Source of the DNA: Planctomycetota bacterium | Lineage (GTDB): Bacteria > Planctomycetota > Planctomycetia > Planctomycetales > Planctomycetaceae | Assembly (NCBI GenBank): GCA_003388505.1 | Contig: QQVO01000055.1 | Span: 1 to 64,000, forward strand | Length of the DNA: 64,000 bases | Direction: 5' to 3' | Shown here: positions 37,237-47,080 of the stretch, one piece after another | Position numbering within the stretch: position 1 is the stretch's first letter | How the letters are laid out: each line of letters begins with the position of its first letter | Notes under the pieces: model-generated | The model's input: only the letters and a program-made list of their open reading frames with translations | Databases searched by the model: none | Told to the model about the DNA's origin: nothing | Translations under genes and position numbers: made by a program

Positions 37237-37572
37237 ATGTCGAACGAGCAGACCTACGACCCGGTGTATTTGCATACGCGGCGGGAGGCCATTGTCATTA
37301 TCGGGCTGTGGCTGTTCGCCCTGTTGTGGACCGTGCCGTATTGCTACTTCAACGGTTTCCACACGGTCTCCGACGGTGGGGAGATCGAAACGATGTGGGG
37401 GATTCCGAGTTGGGTCTTCTGGGGGATCGCCGTTCCGTGGCTGGTGTGCGACGTCATTGCCATTGGATTGTGCCTGTTCTTTATCAAGCAGGACGATCTG
37501 GGGGAGGCGCATGAAGGGGCCGACATCGCCGAGGATCAGCAGCGGCTGCATCAGGCGGAGGGCCGGGGATGA
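37237..37572 (+). CDS. YhdT/DUF997-like small symporter subunit
   Basis: 111 residues from ATG 37237 (AGGAT 7 nt upstream; ATG 37228 is an alternative). Two helices: EAIVIIGLWLFALLWTVPYC and WVFWGIAVPWLVCDVIAIGL. YDPVYLHTRREA is the typical N-terminus of planctomycete YhdT-like proteins. Its stop overlaps the symporter start (ATGA at 37569-37572), indicating translational coupling. In E. coli YhdT is encoded next to the pantothenate symporter PanF. It is probably a helper subunit of the transporter downstream. Confidence 0.75.
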   Translation: MSNEQTYDPVYLHTRREAIVIIGLWLFALLWTVPYCYFNGFHTVSDGGEIETMWGIPSWVFWGIAVPWLVCDVIAIGLCLFFIKQDDLGEAHEGADIAEDQQRLHQAEGRG

Positions 37573-39710
37573 ACTCGTTAAGGTCCGTTGTCCCGATTCT
37601 GGCGGCTGAGGAATCGACGGCCGCACTGGTTACGTTCGTCGTCTACACGCTGGGCGTGTTCGCCCTGGCGGCGATGGCCAACCGGCTGCTGAAACAGAAG
37701 AGCTTTCTGAGCGAGTACTTTCTCGGCAGCCGCGGACTCGGCATGTGGGCTTTCGCGCTCACCTTTGCAGCGACGAGCGCGTCGGGCGGGAGCTTTACCG
37801 GTTTCCCGGCGAAGATCTACACGCACGGCTGGATCCTGGCCTTGTGGATCGCGAGCTACATGGTCGTGCCGATCTGCACGATGGGGTTGATCGGCAAGCG
37901 CGTGAACCAGGTGGCCCGCATCTCCGGCGCGATCACGATGCCGGATGTGCTCAGGGACCGGTACGAGAGCCGCGGACTGGGTCTGCTGTCGACAATTCTG
38001 ATCGTGTTCTTCCTCGTGTGGAACCTGGTGGCGCAGTTCAAGGCGGGGAGCGAGATCCTGCGGACGCTGCTGGCGGACGTGGAACTGTTCGACGTCGCCA
38101 CGGCCTGGACCGGCGCTCAGATCTCGGGCTGGGAGTATTTTGACAAGGTGGAGCCGTCGTATCTGCTCTGCCTGATGGCGTTCGGCGTCTCCGTCATCGT
38201 GTATACGGCTTACGGCGGGTTTCACGCGGTGGTCTGGACCGACGTGATGCAGGGCGTCGTGATGGTGCTGGGCGTGGCGGTGATGTTGCCGCTCGCGCTG
38301 ATGCAGGTCGGCGGACTGGAGAAGGCGACACAGGAAATCGCGCGGATGCAGCCGCCGCGGATCGGTTACGCCAGTATGGGGTTGGAGGTTCCGGTCGCGT
38401 CGAGCCAGCGCCTCCGGGATGAGTGGTTTCTTGCGCCGGACGAGTCGGGAGAGCTGACACGGGTGTGTCGAGTCAGCCGGGACGTGACGTTTGAGCCGGG
38501 CGAACGGATTGTTGAGAACGTGCGATTCGTGGAACTGACGACGCCCGAGGAGGTTGAGCGTCAGATGGAAGCGCTGCGAACGCCGGCAGCCATCGCCCGG
38601 ATGCAGGCCGACCTGCGCGGGGTCGCAGAGAGCCAGCGCGCCTGGGAGAACGCGGAGGGTCCGGTCGAGGGGGAGATTGTCACGGACGCCCAACTGGACG
38701 CCTTGCCAATGGCGGTGTTGAATCATCCCGATGCGCCGGTGGTCCGGGTGACGGTCGACCTGGTGCGGGAGTATGCCTATGGCGCGGGAGAGACCGGGGG
38801 GTACGTGTCGGGTCCGGCGCCGGTTCCTCCGACGCTGCCGGCGACGGCGGATGGTCCGTTGCCGGACGAATCGGCGGCCTCCGTGGGCTTTCTTCCGCTG
38901 GGGGTGGCGATTTCGTTTTTCTTCATGTGGGCGATTTCGGGGAGCGGGCAGCCGCAGTACATGGTCCGGCTGATGGCGTTCAAAGACTCGCGGACGCTGA
39001 CCCGCGCCATTATGACGGTGACCGTGTACTACTCCTTGATTTACTTCCCGCTGGTGATCATCTTCGTTTGTGCGCGGGTGCTGATGCCGGGGATGGAGGG
39101 CAACGCCGACGCCATCATGCCGAGCATCGCCGTTCTGTTGACGAAGAACGTCGGCGCCGCGTGGTTGGGCGGCCTGCTGGTGGCCGCGCCGTTCGCCGCG
39201 GTGATGTCGACCGTGGACAGTTTTCTGCTCGTGATTTCGTCGGCGGTCGTGCGAGACATCTACCAGAGGAACATCAATCCCGACGCCTCGGAGCGGACGA
39301 TCAAGTGGATCAGTTACATCACGACGTTTTCGGTCGGCATGATCGCGCTCGTGGGAGCGATCAAGCCGCCCGAATTCCTGCAGGATATCATTGTCTACGT
39401 GGGCAGCGGTCTGGCGGCCTGTTTTCTGTTCCCGGTTATTGCGGGGCTCTACTGGAAGCGATCGAATCTCGCCGGGTGCGTGGCCGGCATGCTGGGGGGA
39501 TTCGCGGCGCATCTGTCGATGCATCTGATCGGCATGGCGGTGAACGGGCGGTTCGTGAACGCGTACCGGCTGTTCGGAATGGACCCGGTCGTGATCGGAC
39601 TGTTCGCGTCGCTGGTCTGCGTGCTCGTTGTCACGCCGATCACGCCCGCCCCCAATGAGACGCTCGTGCGACGCTACTTTTATCGTGAGAGCGGTCAAGG
39701 CTCTGTATAG
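37569..39710 (+). CDS. sodium:solute symporter (SSS family) with large loop insertion
   Basis: 713 residues, versus ~480-530 usual for the family. About 13 helices share the SSS core: SEYFLGSRGLGMWAFALTFA (49-68), SASGGSFTGFP (70-80), TAYGGFHAVVWTDVMQG (213-229), ISGSGQPQYMVRLMAF and AAPFAAVMSTVDSFLLVISS (Na+-site region). Between ~250 and 438 a hydrophilic insertion of ~190 residues interrupts the fold; it has no motif I know. The substrate is unknown, pantothenate or another small acid being possible. Coupled to the YhdT-like gene; GNAT and amidohydrolase genes follow. Confidence 0.88.
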   Translation: MNSLRSVVPILAAEESTAALVTFVVYTLGVFALAAMANRLLKQKSFLSEYFLGSRGLGMWAFALTFAATSASGGSFTGFPAKIYTHGWILALWIASYMVVPICTMGLIGKRVNQVARISGAITMPDVLRDRYESRGLGLLSTILIVFFLVWNLVAQFKAGSEILRTLLADVELFDVATAWTGAQISGWEYFDKVEPSYLLCLMAFGVSVIVYTAYGGFHAVVWTDVMQGVVMVLGVAVMLPLALMQVGGLEKATQEIARMQPPRIGYASMGLEVPVASSQRLRDEWFLAPDESGELTRVCRVSRDVTFEPGERIVENVRFVELTTPEEVERQMEALRTPAAIARMQADLRGVAESQRAWENAEGPVEGEIVTDAQLDALPMAVLNHPDAPVVRVTVDLVREYAYGAGETGGYVSGPAPVPPTLPATADGPLPDESAASVGFLPLGVAISFFFMWAISGSGQPQYMVRLMAFKDSRTLTRAIMTVTVYYSLIYFPLVIIFVCARVLMPGMEGNADAIMPSIAVLLTKNVGAAWLGGLLVAAPFAAVMSTVDSFLLVISSAVVRDIYQRNINPDASERTIKWISYITTFSVGMIALVGAIKPPEFLQDIIVYVGSGLAACFLFPVIAGLYWKRSNLAGCVAGMLGGFAAHLSMHLIGMAVNGRFVNAYRLFGMDPVVIGLFASLVCVLVVTPITPAPNETLVRRYFYRESGQGSV

Positions 39711-40573: not shown

Positions 40574-41962
40574 ATGGCCGTTGACTGTCTGTTCAAACAC
40601 GCTCACCTGTTCACGCTGGCCGGAGAGGGCGTGGGCTACATTCCCGACGGCGCCGTTGCCGTGACGGGGAATCGGATTATTGCGGTGGGCGACACGAATC
40701 AGGTTCTCGCGGATCTGGCGGCTGCCGGGAACGGCGTGATCAAGCAGGAAATCGACGCGACGCATCAGGCGCTGTTGCCGGGGCTGATCGACGCGCACAT
40801 CCACACACAACTGGGACTGCTCCGCGGCGTCGCCCAGGACATGCACGACTGGATGATGCAGGGCGTGCTCCCGTATATGCTCGAGTTGAAGCCCCGGTGG
40901 CAGATTTTGTCGAGCCAGTTGACCGTGATGGAGGCGCTGCGGGCGGGGACGACGACGTTCGGCGATTTTCTCGTATTCCCCGACCCGGCGCTGATGGAGT
41001 TCTACCTGTCGAGCGGCATTCGCGTGCGCCCGATTCTGCCGGTGTTCGAGATCGGTCCGGAACTGCTTGCCGGAGGCAAGCTGTATCAACTCGACGATCA
41101 CATGGGACAGGCTTCGTACAACGAAGCGCTGCGGCTGTATGCAGAGTACCACGGCGCGGCTGACGGACGGATCCAGTGCATGATGGGTCCGTTTGCTCCG
41201 GACTTCATCAGTGAGAAAACGCTGGTCAAATGCAAGGACGCCGCCGCCGCGAAGGGGCTGCCGATCCAGATGCACACGGCCCAGGGGGACCGCGAAACAG
41301 AACAGATGGAAATGCGGTACAAGAAGCGGACGATTCCGTATCTCGATGAGCACGAGTATCTCGATCCGGAGTTCACCGCCGTGCACATGACGATGGCGAA
41401 CAACGACGAGGTGCATCAGGTCGCCGAGGCGGGCTCGAAGCTGGTGGTGTGCAACGGGTCGATCGGTCTGATCGACGGGATGATTCCGCCGGCGATTCCG
41501 TTTCAGGAGGCGGGCGGCACGGTCGGACTCGGATCGGACCAGGCGGCGGGCAACAACAACTGCAACGTGTTCAACGAGATGAAACTGACCGCGTTCTTCG
41601 GGAAGATGCGGAACCAGGATCCGACCGCGATGCCGGCCGATCGCGCGTTGCGGATGGCGACGATCGACGGGGCGAAGGCATTGGGACTCGAGGATGAGAT
41701 CGGATCCCTCGAAGTCGGCAAGAAGGCCGATCTGATTCTGGTGGATACCCGGCATCCGACGCTGCAGCCTGTGATCGAAGCTCCGTTCAACCTGACGGCC
41801 AACCTGGTCTACGCGGCGCGTGGCAACGAGGTGTCGTTCGTGATGATTGACGGCCGGGTCGTCTTTGACGACGGAAAACTGCAGACAATGGACGAGGACG
41901 CCGTGATTCAGGAGATCCGTGAAACGGTTCCGAGTCGGCGGAAGAAGGTGGGTTTCATGTAG
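40574..41962 (+). CDS. amidohydrolase (TRZ/ATZ chlorohydrolase - deaminase type)
   Basis: 462 residues. Metal-binding residues of the amidohydrolase superfamily: DAHIH (His75, His77), QMHTAQG (His234), AVHMTMANNDE (His271) and GLGSDQAAGNN (Asp322), the last typical of SAH/MTA/guanine-type deaminases and s-triazine hydrolases. The N-terminal beta-sandwich and the C-terminal IDGRVVFDDGKL strand complete the fold. It likely deaminates a purine or pyrimidine-like compound; a preceding transporter and GNAT suggest uptake and modification of one substrate. The stop TAG is part of a palindrome shared with another gene end (55812). Confidence 0.85.
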   Translation: MAVDCLFKHAHLFTLAGEGVGYIPDGAVAVTGNRIIAVGDTNQVLADLAAAGNGVIKQEIDATHQALLPGLIDAHIHTQLGLLRGVAQDMHDWMMQGVLPYMLELKPRWQILSSQLTVMEALRAGTTTFGDFLVFPDPALMEFYLSSGIRVRPILPVFEIGPELLAGGKLYQLDDHMGQASYNEALRLYAEYHGAADGRIQCMMGPFAPDFISEKTLVKCKDAAAAKGLPIQMHTAQGDRETEQMEMRYKKRTIPYLDEHEYLDPEFTAVHMTMANNDEVHQVAEAGSKLVVCNGSIGLIDGMIPPAIPFQEAGGTVGLGSDQAAGNNNCNVFNEMKLTAFFGKMRNQDPTAMPADRALRMATIDGAKALGLEDEIGSLEVGKKADLILVDTRHPTLQPVIEAPFNLTANLVYAARGNEVSFVMIDGRVVFDDGKLQTMDEDAVIQEIRETVPSRRKKVGFM

Positions 41963-42590: not shown

Positions 42591-43031
42591 ATGCGGGACG
42601 AGATTGTTGTGAACGCAGAAATACCGACACGGGACGAAGTTTTTGCCGGCGTCCAGGAATGCCTCGTGGAATCCCTGGCGGTCGATCCGGACGAAGTCAG
42701 CGAGGACTCGCTGCTGGTCGAGGATCTGGGTCTGGCGTCGATCGACATGCTGGATCTGCTGTTCGGATTGAACACGACGTTCGGGACGTACATTCGTCCG
42801 CAGGAAGTGCAATCGCACCTGCTGGGCGGCATGAGCGAAGACGAATTCCTCAAGGCAGACCGCACCGTCAGCGAGAAGGGCTACGAGCGGATCGCCGAAC
42901 TGGTGCCCGATTTCGACCGGAGCAAGCTGGAAGAGGATCTGACGGACGGCGACCTGTTTCAGTTCTTCCGGGTTCGCCACGTGGTCGACCTTGTGCTGGA
43001 CAAAATGGCGGAGAAGGCGGAAAACGCATGA
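42591..43031 (+). CDS. acyl carrier protein, extended
   Basis: 146 residues, roughly twice a normal ACP. The carrier domain covers ~15-85; the phosphopantetheine site is Ser50 in VEDLGLASIDMLDLLF. The last ~60 residues are an added helical extension of unknown role. ATG at 42591 is used; a GTG at 42609 could be the real start. The stop overlaps the ketosynthase ATG (ATGA, 43028-43031), so the two are translationally coupled. No other ACP is in the window, so this one is probably dedicated to the neighbouring synthases. Confidence 0.82.
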   Translation: MRDEIVVNAEIPTRDEVFAGVQECLVESLAVDPDEVSEDSLLVEDLGLASIDMLDLLFGLNTTFGTYIRPQEVQSHLLGGMSEDEFLKADRTVSEKGYERIAELVPDFDRSKLEEDLTDGDLFQFFRVRHVVDLVLDKMAEKAENA

Positions 43032-44305
43032 CGGCCCGCAAAGCGCGGCGGGTTGTCGTCACCGGGATGAGTGCCGTCAGCCCGCCGGGAAACGATCTGG
43101 CGAGCACGTGGGCCTCTGTCAAAGCGGGCGCCAGCGGCGTGCGCAGCGTGCAGAGTTTCGACGCGACGGACTGGCCGGTTCAGATCGCGGGCGAAGTCCG
43201 GGATTTTCGCGTCGATCCGTTTCTGGATGAGTCGCAGCGGTCGCTGGGGGAAATCCTGCCACGCAACGTGCAGATGGGCGTGGCAGCGACTGCGATGGCC
43301 GCAGAAGACGCAGGGTTGCAGCCGGAGAGCATTCCGCCCGAGCGTCTGGGCATTTCGGTGGGGGCGTACACGACGTGCATCAACCTCCGGCAGGCGGCCG
43401 GCTGGCGAACGTTGATGGTGGATCACGCCCCGCCGCGCTACCCGGACGACGAAAAGCGAATCGATCTGCGGCTCCCCCAGGTGAGCATCGTCGAAGCCCT
43501 CGGGGATCGCTGGCGCGCCGGGGGACCGAACTACGTGGTGAGCACCGCGTGCGCCGCGGGGACGCAGGCGCTCGGTTCGGCCGTCCGGGCGATTGAGGAC
43601 GGGCGGGCCGATGTGATGATTTCCGGCGGCTTCGACAACATGGTCGAGGAAGTGGTGTTGCTGAGCTTCTCGCTGCTGGGTGTGATGTCGCAACGGAATG
43701 ACGAGCCGGAGCGGGCGAGCCGGCCCTTCGACCGCCAACGCGACGGATTCGTCATCAGCGAAGGGGCCGCGATTCTCATTCTCGAAGAATTGAAACATGC
43801 GCAGCAGCGGGGAGCGCGAATCTATGCGGAATTGACGGGATACGGGGCCAGCATGACGACGGAGCACATCACCGATGCGGCGACGGACGGCGGCGCCCCG
43901 GCGGCGGCGATTTCGCTGGCGCTGCAGGACGCGGGCATGGAGCCGGAACAGATTCAGTACGTCAATGCGCACGGCACGTCGACTCGCGGCAACGACAAGA
44001 GCGAAACGATGGCGATTCGAAAGGCGTTTGGAGAACACGCCGATCGACTGGCGGTGAGTTCGACGAAGTCGATGACGGGCCACCTGATCCACGCGGCCGG
44101 CGCGTTGGAAGCGGTGTTCTGCGTGATGGCAATTCACGACAACGTGGCGCCGCCGACGATCAATTACGAGCATCCGGATCCCGGTTGCGATCTTGACTAT
44201 GTGCCGAACGAGGCGCGGGAGATGCCGATCGACGCGGCGCTTTCCAACTCGTTCGCGTTCGGCGGGAACAACGGGGCTGTGGTGTTTCGACGACTGCAGG
44301 AGTAG
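43028..44305 (+). CDS. beta-ketoacyl-ACP synthase II-type (KS-alpha), catalytic
   Basis: 425 residues from ATG 43028. The full FabF triad is present: Cys175 in VSTACAAG, His315 in NAHGTST and His352 in MTGHLIHAAG. FVTG-like opening VVVTGMSAVSP and SNSFAFGGNNGAVVF near the end agree with FabF and type II PKS KS-alpha. It would condense malonyl-ACP or a relative with an acyl primer, with the adjacent ACP as carrier. Starts inside the ACP stop codon. A second, incomplete ketosynthase follows after 61 bp. Confidence 0.92.
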   Translation: MTARKARRVVVTGMSAVSPPGNDLASTWASVKAGASGVRSVQSFDATDWPVQIAGEVRDFRVDPFLDESQRSLGEILPRNVQMGVAATAMAAEDAGLQPESIPPERLGISVGAYTTCINLRQAAGWRTLMVDHAPPRYPDDEKRIDLRLPQVSIVEALGDRWRAGGPNYVVSTACAAGTQALGSAVRAIEDGRADVMISGGFDNMVEEVVLLSFSLLGVMSQRNDEPERASRPFDRQRDGFVISEGAAILILEELKHAQQRGARIYAELTGYGASMTTEHITDAATDGGAPAAAISLALQDAGMEPEQIQYVNAHGTSTRGNDKSETMAIRKAFGEHADRLAVSSTKSMTGHLIHAAGALEAVFCVMAIHDNVAPPTINYEHPDPGCDLDYVPNEAREMPIDAALSNSFAFGGNNGAVVFRRLQE

Positions 44306-44366
44306 ATGAGTGCGACAGCGGACGACCCGGCGCGGGTTGCTTCCGGAGAGAATGACAAGCTGACCG

Positions 44367-45665
44367 ATGAGTGAAGCCGACGAAAAACGACGCGTGTTCG
44401 TGACCGGGATGGGGCTGTTGAGTCCCATCGGCCGGACCGCCGATGACGTCTGGCAGCGATGGGCCGGCGGGCGCTGCCCGGCGGGTCCGGTGAAGCGGTT
44501 TGACGCGACGAATCTGCCGACGCGGATCGCCACAGAGATTCCCGATTTCTCGCCGAGAAAGGAACTGAAGAGCGGCCGGTTGGCGCGGTTGCTGCGGCCC
44601 GGTGAAGATTTCGGCTACCTCGCGGCGGCGGCGGCGATCAGCGACGCGGGACTTGACCGGGAGTCGATCAACGGTCCGCGATCGGGCATCGCGATCGGGT
44701 GTCGCAAGGAAGGCCCGAAGGTTGAGAACTTTTTTTCCGCCATCAAGGCCTCGCTCACCGAGGCGGGCGAGATGGACCATCAGAAGTTCATCGACGATGG
44801 AATCAAGCTGATTCCTCCGCAAACGATCGTCGAGGGGCTTCCCAACGCCTGCATGTATTACATCGCGCATGAGTACGTGCTGCAGGGGATCAACTACAAC
44901 TTCCTGGCCCTGGGGTCGGGCGGAGCGATGGCGCTGGGGGAGAGCCTGCGTGCGATCCGCCGGGGCGAGGCGGATTTGATGCTGGCCGGAGGATACGACT
45001 CGTGGGTCAACTGGGTGTATCTGGCCCAGTTGTCGAACCGCCGTCTGCTGTCGCGAAACAACGACCATCCGCAGAAGGCCCACCGGCCGTTCGATTCCAA
45101 CCGGGACGGCAGCGTCGCCGGCGAGGGCGCCTGTCTGATGATCCTGGAAGACGCCGACTCGGCGGTGCGCCGGGGAGCGAGCGTCTACGGCGAACTTCAG
45201 GGTTACGGTTCCGCGACAGGGGTGCCGCACGAGGATCTCGCCGCGTGCACGCGCGTGCTGACGGGTTGTATTCGTCAGGCGCTGGCTGACGCCGGTTGCG
45301 GGCCCGAGGAGATTGACTTCGTCCATCTCTCCGGAGACGCGACGCCGGGCGGCGACGCCGTCGAGACGAGAGCGACGATGGAAGCGCTCGGCCGGCACGG
45401 CACGCAGATTCCCGCCACCACGCTGAAGTCAGCGACCGGGCATTTGGGGAACGCATCGGGCAGCATGGAACTGGCGATGATGTTCGAGGCGATGAAACGG
45501 CAGACGATTCTGCCGATCGTGAATCTCGAAGACCCGGATCCGGTTTTGCCGTTGTCATTTGTGACGTCGCCGATGGAGGGGCTGGAGCTGCGGCGTGGAT
45601 TGCTGCTGAATCGGGGGTGGCCTTCCCACTACACGGCATTGGTCGTCGGCCGAGCGGGCGGGTGA
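44367..45665 (+). CDS. ketosynthase-like protein lacking active-site Cys (KS-beta/CLF-like)
   Basis: 432 residues with the whole FabF fold (RRVFVTGMGLLSPIG; GEADLMLAGGYDSWVN; FDSNRDGSVAGEGACLMILE). Where KS-alpha has TACAAG this protein has ALGSGG, so the cysteine becomes Gly183; the first catalytic His is Ser322 (VHLSGDAT). Only His359 (TGHLGNASG) remains. Type II PKS chain-length factors similarly lack the cysteine and dimerise with a competent KS. The order KS-alpha then KS-beta is the same here. It might shape chain length, or be a scaffolding subunit; condensation on its own is not expected. Confidence 0.85.
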   Translation: MSEADEKRRVFVTGMGLLSPIGRTADDVWQRWAGGRCPAGPVKRFDATNLPTRIATEIPDFSPRKELKSGRLARLLRPGEDFGYLAAAAAISDAGLDRESINGPRSGIAIGCRKEGPKVENFFSAIKASLTEAGEMDHQKFIDDGIKLIPPQTIVEGLPNACMYYIAHEYVLQGINYNFLALGSGGAMALGESLRAIRRGEADLMLAGGYDSWVNWVYLAQLSNRRLLSRNNDHPQKAHRPFDSNRDGSVAGEGACLMILEDADSAVRRGASVYGELQGYGSATGVPHEDLAACTRVLTGCIRQALADAGCGPEEIDFVHLSGDATPGGDAVETRATMEALGRHGTQIPATTLKSATGHLGNASGSMELAMMFEAMKRQTILPIVNLEDPDPVLPLSFVTSPMEGLELRRGLLLNRGWPSHYTALVVGRAGG

Positions 45666-45724: not shown

Positions 45725-47080
45725 ATGTCTGACGAATCACGGGATGCTGTTTGTATTGTCGGCGCCGGGTCTTCCGGCATTGTCGCGGCCAAGATTCTGC
45801 ACGAGCGCGGCATCCCCTTTGATTGCTTCGAGAAGGGCACGGGGGTTGGTGGCCTGTGGCGGTATCGCAACGACAGCGGGACGTCTTCCGCTTACCGGAC
45901 GCTGCACATCAACACGTCGCGGGACTCGATGCAATACTCGGACTTTCCGATGCCAGCGGAGTACCCGCCGTTTCCGCATCACTCGCTGATCCTCGACTAC
46001 TTCGAGAGTTACGTGGATCATTTCGGCTTCCGCGACAAGATCACGTTCGGCGCGTCGGTCGAGCACATCGAACCGTTGAGCGACGGCGGGTACGAGGTGA
46101 CCGTCGAAGAGTCGGACGGACAGCGCACGACGCGGCGATATCGGGCCGTGCTGGTCGCCAACGGCCACCACTCGAAGCCCCGCTGGCCGGAGTTTCCGGG
46201 ATCGTTCGACGGCGAAGTGATGCACTCGCACTACTATGAAGACGCCAGCGGATTCGCCGGCAAGCGGGTGCTGGTGGTGGGGCTGGGGAATTCGAGTTGC
46301 GACATCGTGTGTGAAACGGCGCGGCTTGCGGCCAAGACCTTCCTGTCCACACGGCGCGGCGCGCACATCATCCCCAAGTACATGTTCGGCCTGGTGATGG
46401 ACCGCATCCTGCCGCCCTGGTGCTGGCGGTATCTGCCATTCAAGATGTTGCAGGGGTTGTTCGGACTGGGGCTGTTTCTCTCGCGCGGCAAGGTCACGGA
46501 TTACGGGCTGCCCAAGCCGGGGCACCGGGTGCTGGAGGAGCACCCCACGATCTCGTCCGATCTGCTGAACCTGTTGGGTCACGGCGACATCACGGTGAAG
46601 CCGACGATCAAGGAATTGTGCGGCGACCGTGTGCGCTTCGTGGACGATTCCGAAGAACAGGTTGACGTCATCGTATATGCCACCGGCTATGACATCACGT
46701 TCCCGTTTCTGGACAAGTCGGTGCTCGATATCTCCGGAAACGAGGTCGGCTTGTACCGGAACGTCGTCCATCCCGATCATCCCGGACTGTGCTTTATCGG
46801 ACTTGTCCAACCGTGGGGGGCCATCATGCCGCTGGCGGAGGCGCAATCGGAGTGGATGGCGGACGTCATCGAGGGGAAGTGCGGTTTGCCGGACCGGGAC
46901 CAGATGCTGCGCCAGATTCAGCGCGACCGCGAAAAGATGGCCCGGCGTTACACGAAGTCTTCGCGGCATACGATCCAGGTGGATTTCTTCCCCTATCTGG
47001 ATCAGATTCGCCGGGAGCGGAAGCGGAAACCGGCGGCCGTTCGCTCCGAGCGGGAGCAACCGAAAATGGTTGAGGCGTAG
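45725..47080 (+). CDS. flavin-containing monooxygenase (FMO-like)
   Basis: 451 residues from ATG 45725 (the in-frame ATG at 45617 overlaps the ketosynthase gene and gives no extra similarity). FAD-binding GAGSSG (13-18), the FMO fingerprint FPGSFDGEVMHSHYY, NADPH-binding GLGNSSCD, and YATGYD near the C-terminus. FMOs of this type oxygenate amines, sulfides or ketones (Baeyer-Villiger). It follows the ketosynthases after 59 bp on the same strand, so oxidation of the acyl product of this locus is a reasonable inference. No signal peptide. Confidence 0.85.
   Translation: MSDESRDAVCIVGAGSSGIVAAKILHERGIPFDCFEKGTGVGGLWRYRNDSGTSSAYRTLHINTSRDSMQYSDFPMPAEYPPFPHHSLILDYFESYVDHFGFRDKITFGASVEHIEPLSDGGYEVTVEESDGQRTTRRYRAVLVANGHHSKPRWPEFPGSFDGEVMHSHYYEDASGFAGKRVLVVGLGNSSCDIVCETARLAAKTFLSTRRGAHIIPKYMFGLVMDRILPPWCWRYLPFKMLQGLFGLGLFLSRGKVTDYGLPKPGHRVLEEHPTISSDLLNLLGHGDITVKPTIKELCGDRVRFVDDSEEQVDVIVYATGYDITFPFLDKSVLDISGNEVGLYRNVVHPDHPGLCFIGLVQPWGAIMPLAEAQSEWMADVIEGKCGLPDRDQMLRQIQRDREKMARRYTKSSRHTIQVDFFPYLDQIRRERKRKPAAVRSEREQPKMVEA

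Follow-up and report, generated by a model that had tools for sequence, protein, structure and literature searches.

The window, i.e., the whole stretch of 64,000 nucleotides that was analysed, carries a run of plus-strand genes in which an ACP gene is followed by a ketosynthase (KS) with an intact active site, here called KS-alpha, and by a second ketosynthase paralogue without the catalytic cysteine, KS-beta. The genes and the codons discussed below are the following:

42591..43031, plus strand, ACP, 146 aa, extended at its C-terminus by about 60 residues
43028..44305, plus strand, KS-alpha, 425 aa, Cys-His-Lys-His intact, FAFGG gate
44367..45665, plus strand, KS-beta, 432 aa, ATG start, a Cys-less FabF-like paralogue and the subject of this analysis
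44703..44708, plus strand, R113-K114 codons of KS-beta, at the position of FabF G107-I108 in the alignment
44913..44915, plus strand, Gly183 codon (GGG), at the position of the catalytic Cys in the alignment
45324..45338, plus strand, H320-L-S322-G-D324 segment, in which the classical His is Ser322
45330..45332, plus strand, Ser322 codon (TCC), at the position of FabF His303 in the alignment
45441..45443, plus strand, His359 codon (CAT), present in the window KS-beta and replaced by Phe in 4/4 other orthologues
45612..45626, plus strand, R416-G-W418-P-S420, which replaces the F-G-F-G-G gate segment of FabF in the alignment
45725..47080, plus strand, FMO-like flavin monooxygenase (FMO), 451 aa

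The ACP is recognised by PF00550 with 20.9 bits (cut-off 20.8) and by 10 NCBIfam ACP models (best E 8.9e-11), all of them below their own cut-offs; its LGLASID motif likely holds the phosphopantetheine serine. The stop codon of this gene overlaps the start of KS-alpha (ATGA). KS-alpha scores 454 bits with the NCBIfam model PRK07314 (cut-off 387) and 458 bits with the FabF equivalog TIGR03150, whose cut-off of 493.75 it misses. KS-beta starts 61 bp after the KS-alpha stop, and the FMO gene (PF00743, 312.7 bits) lies 59 bp downstream of KS-beta and would belong to the same operon. The order ACP-KS-alpha-KS-beta, in which the Cys-less gene has an ACP gene and that of a catalytic KS as neighbours, is the one expected for a gene of chain-length factor (CLF) type. 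No KR or DH was found beside these genes among the ten window genes searched with Pfam, and the locus thus departs from a reducing type II PKS cluster. A minus-strand ORF that overlaps KS-beta (44160-45398) was taken as the shadow of the GC-rich plus-strand gene. Further upstream there are a sodium:solute symporter gene and an amidohydrolase gene (window positions 37569-39710 and 40574-41962), separated from the ACP gene by approx. 630 bp without a clear gene.

KS-beta has both ketosynthase halves (PF00109, 107 bits; PF02801, 72 bits in Pfam) and scores 258.3 bits with TIGR03150, below the cut-off given above. When it is aligned with E. coli FabF, Cys163 corresponds to Gly183, His303 to Ser322, Lys335 to Lys354 and His340 to His359; the Cys-His-His active site of FabF is therefore absent from KS-beta (Gly183, Ser322, His359), and the Cys to Gly and His to Ser replacements that a sequence-only reading had pointed out are confirmed. 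FabF residues are numbered as in the E. coli protein; some of these numbers are given in PMC2649909 and PMC7138838. In the Gly-type KS-betas the R113-K114 position is RK in 5/5 orthologues, as compared with NK in three KS-betas from Streptomyces, and Lys114 is common only to these two groups among 43 aligned KS rows. The position of the FabF GFGG segment, for which a gate function has been described (PMC7138838), reads [GS]WPS in the Gly-type proteins. Arg at the position of FabF Phe398 was found in 17 of the 20 Cys-less rows of the same alignment, CLFs included, and in 0/23 Cys-bearing rows.

A profile search detected KS-beta orthologues in five of 170 family genomes, from two genera, with scores of 780-869 bits against 320 bits for the next match; the four orthologues besides the window copy all belong to one genus (g16). 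Gly occupies the Cys site in 5/5, so that the case in which homologues at the locus retain Cys and only this copy is damaged, raised beforehand as an alternative, did not arise (Cys in 0/5). At the two other sites proposed for comparison, 322 and 359, the residues vary between genera: in all four g16 orthologues position 322 is His and position 359 is Phe, a pattern opposite to Ser322 and His359 in the window. The description "one His lost, second remains" is accordingly right for the window copy and fails as a mark of the group, since it is reversed in 4/5; the loss of a different decarboxylation His in each lineage fits sites that have been freed from catalysis. In contrast to the orthologues, the 20 non-orthologous family matches at 1e-90 all carry Cys in the alignment. 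The genome samples of family, class and phylum were partial and may overlap; within them, 397 class genomes gave nine matches at 1e-75, namely the five Gly-type orthologues and four proteins with Cys, with no further Gly-type orthologue, and in 392 phylum genomes at 1e-94 the window's own KS-beta alone was matched. A scan of genome contigs by exact peptide patterns, which is a weak test of absence, returned one distant Cys-bearing KS (L012, 29%). One scan of viral contigs detected no relative; another, run with the KS-alpha alignment, yielded 13 loci, and 10 of these were used as rows of an alignment.

KS-beta lies directly after KS-alpha in 5/5 loci, and in three of them (G390, G316 and G311) the two genes overlap by 4 bp. 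The Cys-His-Lys-His residues of KS-alpha are present in 4/4 loci, the Cys part of the G316 copy being cut by the contig end. The genes beyond the pair differ in g16 from those of the window: in the three g16 loci that have sequence upstream, similarity searches detected no ACP next to the two genes, and the genes selected in the four g16 loci include no relative of the FMO. Within g16, dN/dS was 0.06-0.16 for KS-beta (6/6 pairs) and 0.10-0.15 for KS-alpha (3 pairs), and between genera it was 0.22-0.37 (4 pairs) and 0.19-0.23 (3 pairs), respectively, all of them rough values since dS, at 1.3-2.8, is near saturation. Judged from these codon rates, purifying selection acts on KS-beta. Recent damage of one copy is ruled out by the low dN/dS together with the conserved Gly.

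The single-chain model of KS-beta, obtained from 13 rows (pLDDT 84.9, pTM 0.86), predicts a full KS fold, and its TM-scores, normalised by query length, are 0.86 with FabF 1e5m and 0.82 with chain 1tqy_B of the actinorhodin CLF; the first of these values and the two Pfam halves place the protein in the KS fold superfamily. Residues 114-138 and 145-159 have pLDDT values <50, and these stretches contain an insert of 13-14 residues relative to FabF and to the aligned CLFs. By analogy with the 108-140 region of FabF, which has its place in the dimer interface, this low-confidence region presumably faces that interface. In profile comparisons KS-beta reached 272 bits to FabF 1j3n versus 135 to the actinorhodin CLF; the Iga12 and aryl-polyene CLF chains, with which kinship is still possible, were absent among the best 60 of 137 and of 156 PDB rows. 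For PDB entry 9s5h, which has two KS-like chains, no publication was found.

The position of KS-beta was studied in two trees, with supports given as ultrafast bootstrap/SH-aLRT. In the 38-row tree the five Gly-type KS-betas joined three KS-betas from Streptomyces plasmids, which have Ala at the Cys site (98/90), and these eight together with four planctomycete KS-betas of the Asp/Glu type formed a 12-row Cys-less branch (100/97); when the catalytic and gate columns were dropped, the supports were 99/92 and 95/98. An earlier tree of 42 rows, which included a single Streptomyces KS-beta, gave 100/95 for the first join and 94/86 (unstarred) for a wider 10-row Cys-less group, and for this tree the program issued a warning of two long branches coming together. 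KS-alpha likewise grouped with the KS-alpha of the Streptomyces clusters, with 98/94 in the 42-row tree, 95/88 in the 38-row tree and 92/92 (unstarred) without the motif columns. The CLFs were placed apart from KS-beta in the 38-row tree and in the tree without motif columns, and KS-beta is thus outside the CLF clade. For the 38-row tree 13 rows of the 42-row tree were left out (OWN_C32_c, HR_L061c, six FAM rows, G259_x, CLF_L059, CLF_L062, KSa_L059 and KSa_L062) and 9 were added; the cut KS-alpha of G316 is in neither tree, both are without aryl-polyene or Iga12 CLFs, and of the 20 non-orthologous family matches 10 are in the first tree and 4 in the second. A distinct KS-beta group specific to planctomycetes had been suggested. 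Its distinctness holds, and the Gly type was found in two genera of one family; specificity does not extend to the wider clade, whose nearest members in the tree set are the Cys-to-Ala KS-betas of Streptomyces plasmids.

The ACP points in the same direction less strictly. Compared with eight other ACPs, the window ACP had its two best matches in the Streptomyces clusters (34%, E 5.9e-23 and 31%, E 1.1e-22), followed by L025, a planctomycete ACP beside a Cys-bearing KS (35%, E 3.7e-20), and by the third Streptomyces ACP (E 2.1e-19). The link is not reciprocal, since the Streptomyces ACPs are somewhat closer to L027, another planctomycete ACP beside a Cys-bearing KS, than to the window ACP. A GG-x-x-[ED]-[ED]-EF segment is found in the window and Streptomyces ACPs and is missing from L025 and L027. 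Taken together, the sequences of KS-alpha, KS-beta and ACP are consistent with one old module, a reading that keeps the risk of long-branch attraction.

Cys-less KS partners in planctomycetes are already known. Rattray et al. (2009) reported FabF paralogues of planctomycetes in which Cys163 is replaced by Asp, Glu, Val, Phe or Ser, among them two from Rhodopirellula baltica, NP_865682 with Asp and NP_866153 with Glu (PMC2649909). Both are FabF-like, lack Cys163 and keep His298, according to the same source; they match the Asp/Glu rows of our trees, which join the window group, by residue pattern alone. The window group differs from the Asp/Glu paralogues in having Gly, in standing beside KS-alpha every time and in having been seen in two genera. 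A profile of four Asp/Glu proteins matched 248/248 class genomes at 1e-95, a threshold that also admits other KSs; in the window genome it gave 4 matches, as against 3 Asp-type proteins. Among 12 hand-picked Asp/Glu stretches from seven genomes, FabF and AcpP adjoin KS-beta in one (L093:5398-8599, genome G082), a second AcpP-FabF-KS-beta row of the Asp/Glu type besides the one on C32 of the window genome (below); in the other 11 no KS or ACP relative was found beside KS-beta.

The window genome itself has three more Cys-less KS-betas, all with Asp at the Cys site, on contigs C32, C7 and C57:

C32, L029:7753-10675, Asp-type KS-beta locus with the order AcpP-FabF-KS-beta
C7, L028:8762-12074, Asp-type KS-beta locus in which KS-beta precedes the genes of a Cys-bearing KS and of a 3-hydroxyacyl-CoA dehydrogenase
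C57, L031:3101-4423, Asp-type KS-beta locus

Elsewhere in this genome, which looks planctomycete from its 66 matches to PF07583 (planctomycete cytochrome domain; none above cut-off in 14 control genomes), there are 33 FabG-like matches, 1 above cut-off, and 4 FabZ-like matches, none above cut-off. Contig C18 carries a DH-KR-ACP(long)-DH cassette (L090:10533-13042), with no KS match within 19.9 kb; its ACP shares 70% identity with the one in L025, a KS-ACP-DH cluster in genome G382.

The Streptomyces plasmid KS-betas (L061, L063 and L064) are the sister group in the trees and share with the window protein the insert and Lys at 114, and their clusters hold a KS-alpha and a long ACP related to those of the window, although the kinship of the ACPs is not exclusive. 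They differ in that Ala occupies the Cys site and both His are kept. The clusters also differ in their order, FabD-ACP-KR-DH-KS-alpha-DH-KS-beta, in which a DH separates KS-alpha from KS-beta and both KR and DH are present. The three clusters carry in addition a further large KS protein, which in L061 has 788 residues and two KS stretches. What is new at the window locus is the Gly type, beside KS-alpha in each case and accompanied by a KS-alpha and an ACP linked to Streptomyces; the literature titles and abstract openings that were searched hold no description of a Gly-type KS-beta in planctomycetes.

Two other kinds of KS partner are relevant for comparison. Aromatic CLFs of the actinorhodin type (1tqy_B) are also Cys-less KS paralogues that adjoin a KS-alpha, and they share with KS-beta the Arg at FabF Phe398 and a GG after the Cys site. 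The residues at the four sites are nevertheless different, Gln, Asp, Lys and Arg in 3/3 aromatic CLFs versus Gly, Ser or His, Lys, and His or Phe in KS-beta. Gln, to which a role in CLFs is usually ascribed, occupies the Cys site in 3/3 compared CLFs and in 0/5 Gly-type proteins; L062, one of five CLF-like proteins fetched, has Asp. A 2023 catalogue lists Planctomycetes among 14 phyla with KS-CLF pairs and also names a clade that is mainly non-actinobacterial (PMC10132072). In cispentacin synthesis, AmcF is a KS whose partner AmcG lacks the KS motifs and is not a CLF; cyclisation has been proposed as its role (PMC10698177). As described there, AmcG is without some of the CLF secondary structure, which sets it apart from the full-length KS fold of the window KS-beta.

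KS-beta is probably the non-catalytic, pocket-shaping half of a heterodimer with the upstream KS-alpha. Gly183 could not be acylated and one of the two decarboxylation histidines is gone in each copy, and the partner role is further favoured by the adjacency of the pair in all five loci, the coexistence of a Cys-less KS-beta with an intact KS-alpha, the low dN/dS, the KS fold, the tree joins of both proteins, the ACP matches and the Arg at FabF Phe398. Against it count the g16 pairs without a neighbouring ACP, the lack of KR or DH beside the window genes, the FMO that is not shared, the low confidence of the interface-relevant stretches, the weaker KS-alpha join without motif columns, the 94/86 support with its long-branch warning, the non-reciprocal ACP link, and two residues, H320 and D324, which suggest that the site may be more than dead. 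The last point leads to a reading that we regard as unlikely, in which the active site was re-built and H320, D324, Lys354 and R113-K114 serve to bind an acyl-ACP intermediate or to convert it, for example by the kind of cyclisation that has been proposed for AmcG, a precedent for a partner without KS motifs that has a proposed role of its own. H320 and D324 are present in 5/5 Gly-type proteins and in 0/38 other rows of the 43-row KS alignment, while the classical His positions vary; nevertheless, 170 of 438 columns are invariant among these five sequences, four of which come from one genus, so that single invariant residues mean little, and the change of the gate to [GS]WPS may close the pocket. 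An extended form of the same idea, quite unlikely in our view, would have the Gly-type KS-betas, after the loss of Cys and one His, fixing H320, D324, Lys354, an R113-K114 floor and a [GS]WPS lid that act on the chain held by KS-alpha; next to CLFs and the putative cyclisation factor they would then constitute a further kind of KS partner, one that planctomycetes and Streptomyces share as part of an inherited module together with KS-alpha and the long ACP.

A full-length KS fold under purifying selection would also suit a KS-beta that forms homodimers and catalyses some other reaction without KS-alpha; the adjacent KS-alpha in 5/5 loci, overlapping in 3/5, and the absence of a nucleophile at the Cys position leave little probability for this. 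With regard to two further origins, the AU test rejected a clade of KS-beta with KS-alpha (p-AU 0.00055) and the forced grouping of the 5 KS-betas with 3 aromatic CLFs (p-AU 0.0189), rejections to be taken with caution because the model's pull on long branches applies to them as well. Descent by drift from the classical aromatic CLFs, which would account for the shared Arg and for the GG that follows the Cys site, is very improbable given that rejection, Gly instead of Gln, the absence of the CLF Asp and Arg, an insert that the aligned CLFs do not have, and a profile closer to FabF; the statement that the site is not simply a CLF copy is borne out. An origin by tandem duplication of KS-alpha followed by decay, for which the tandem position speaks, is scarcely credible in view of the first AU result, the low dN/dS and the Gly retained by all the orthologues.

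If KS-beta is the partner of KS-alpha in a heterodimer, KS-alpha, with its Cys-His-His site, would carry out the decarboxylative condensation on the operon's own long ACP. KS-beta would supply the other half of the dimer interface and with it the far end of the acyl pocket. A tunnel across this interface would allow KS-beta, although of a separate lineage, to help to set the accepted chains and the chain length as CLFs do. The reducing and dehydrating steps could be provided in trans, for example from the DH-KR-ACP-DH cassette of C18, and the FMO may tailor the product.

The family concerned is known mostly from actinobacterial CLFs, and these results add to it a lineage of KS-betas that has an active-site code of its own. 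They also link the Cys-less FabF paralogues of planctomycetes, noted in 2009 and of unsettled function, to reducing clusters of Streptomyces by way of kindred KS-alpha, KS-beta and ACP proteins. Should the heterodimer prove real, dead KS partners that control the chain would not be confined to the CLF family.
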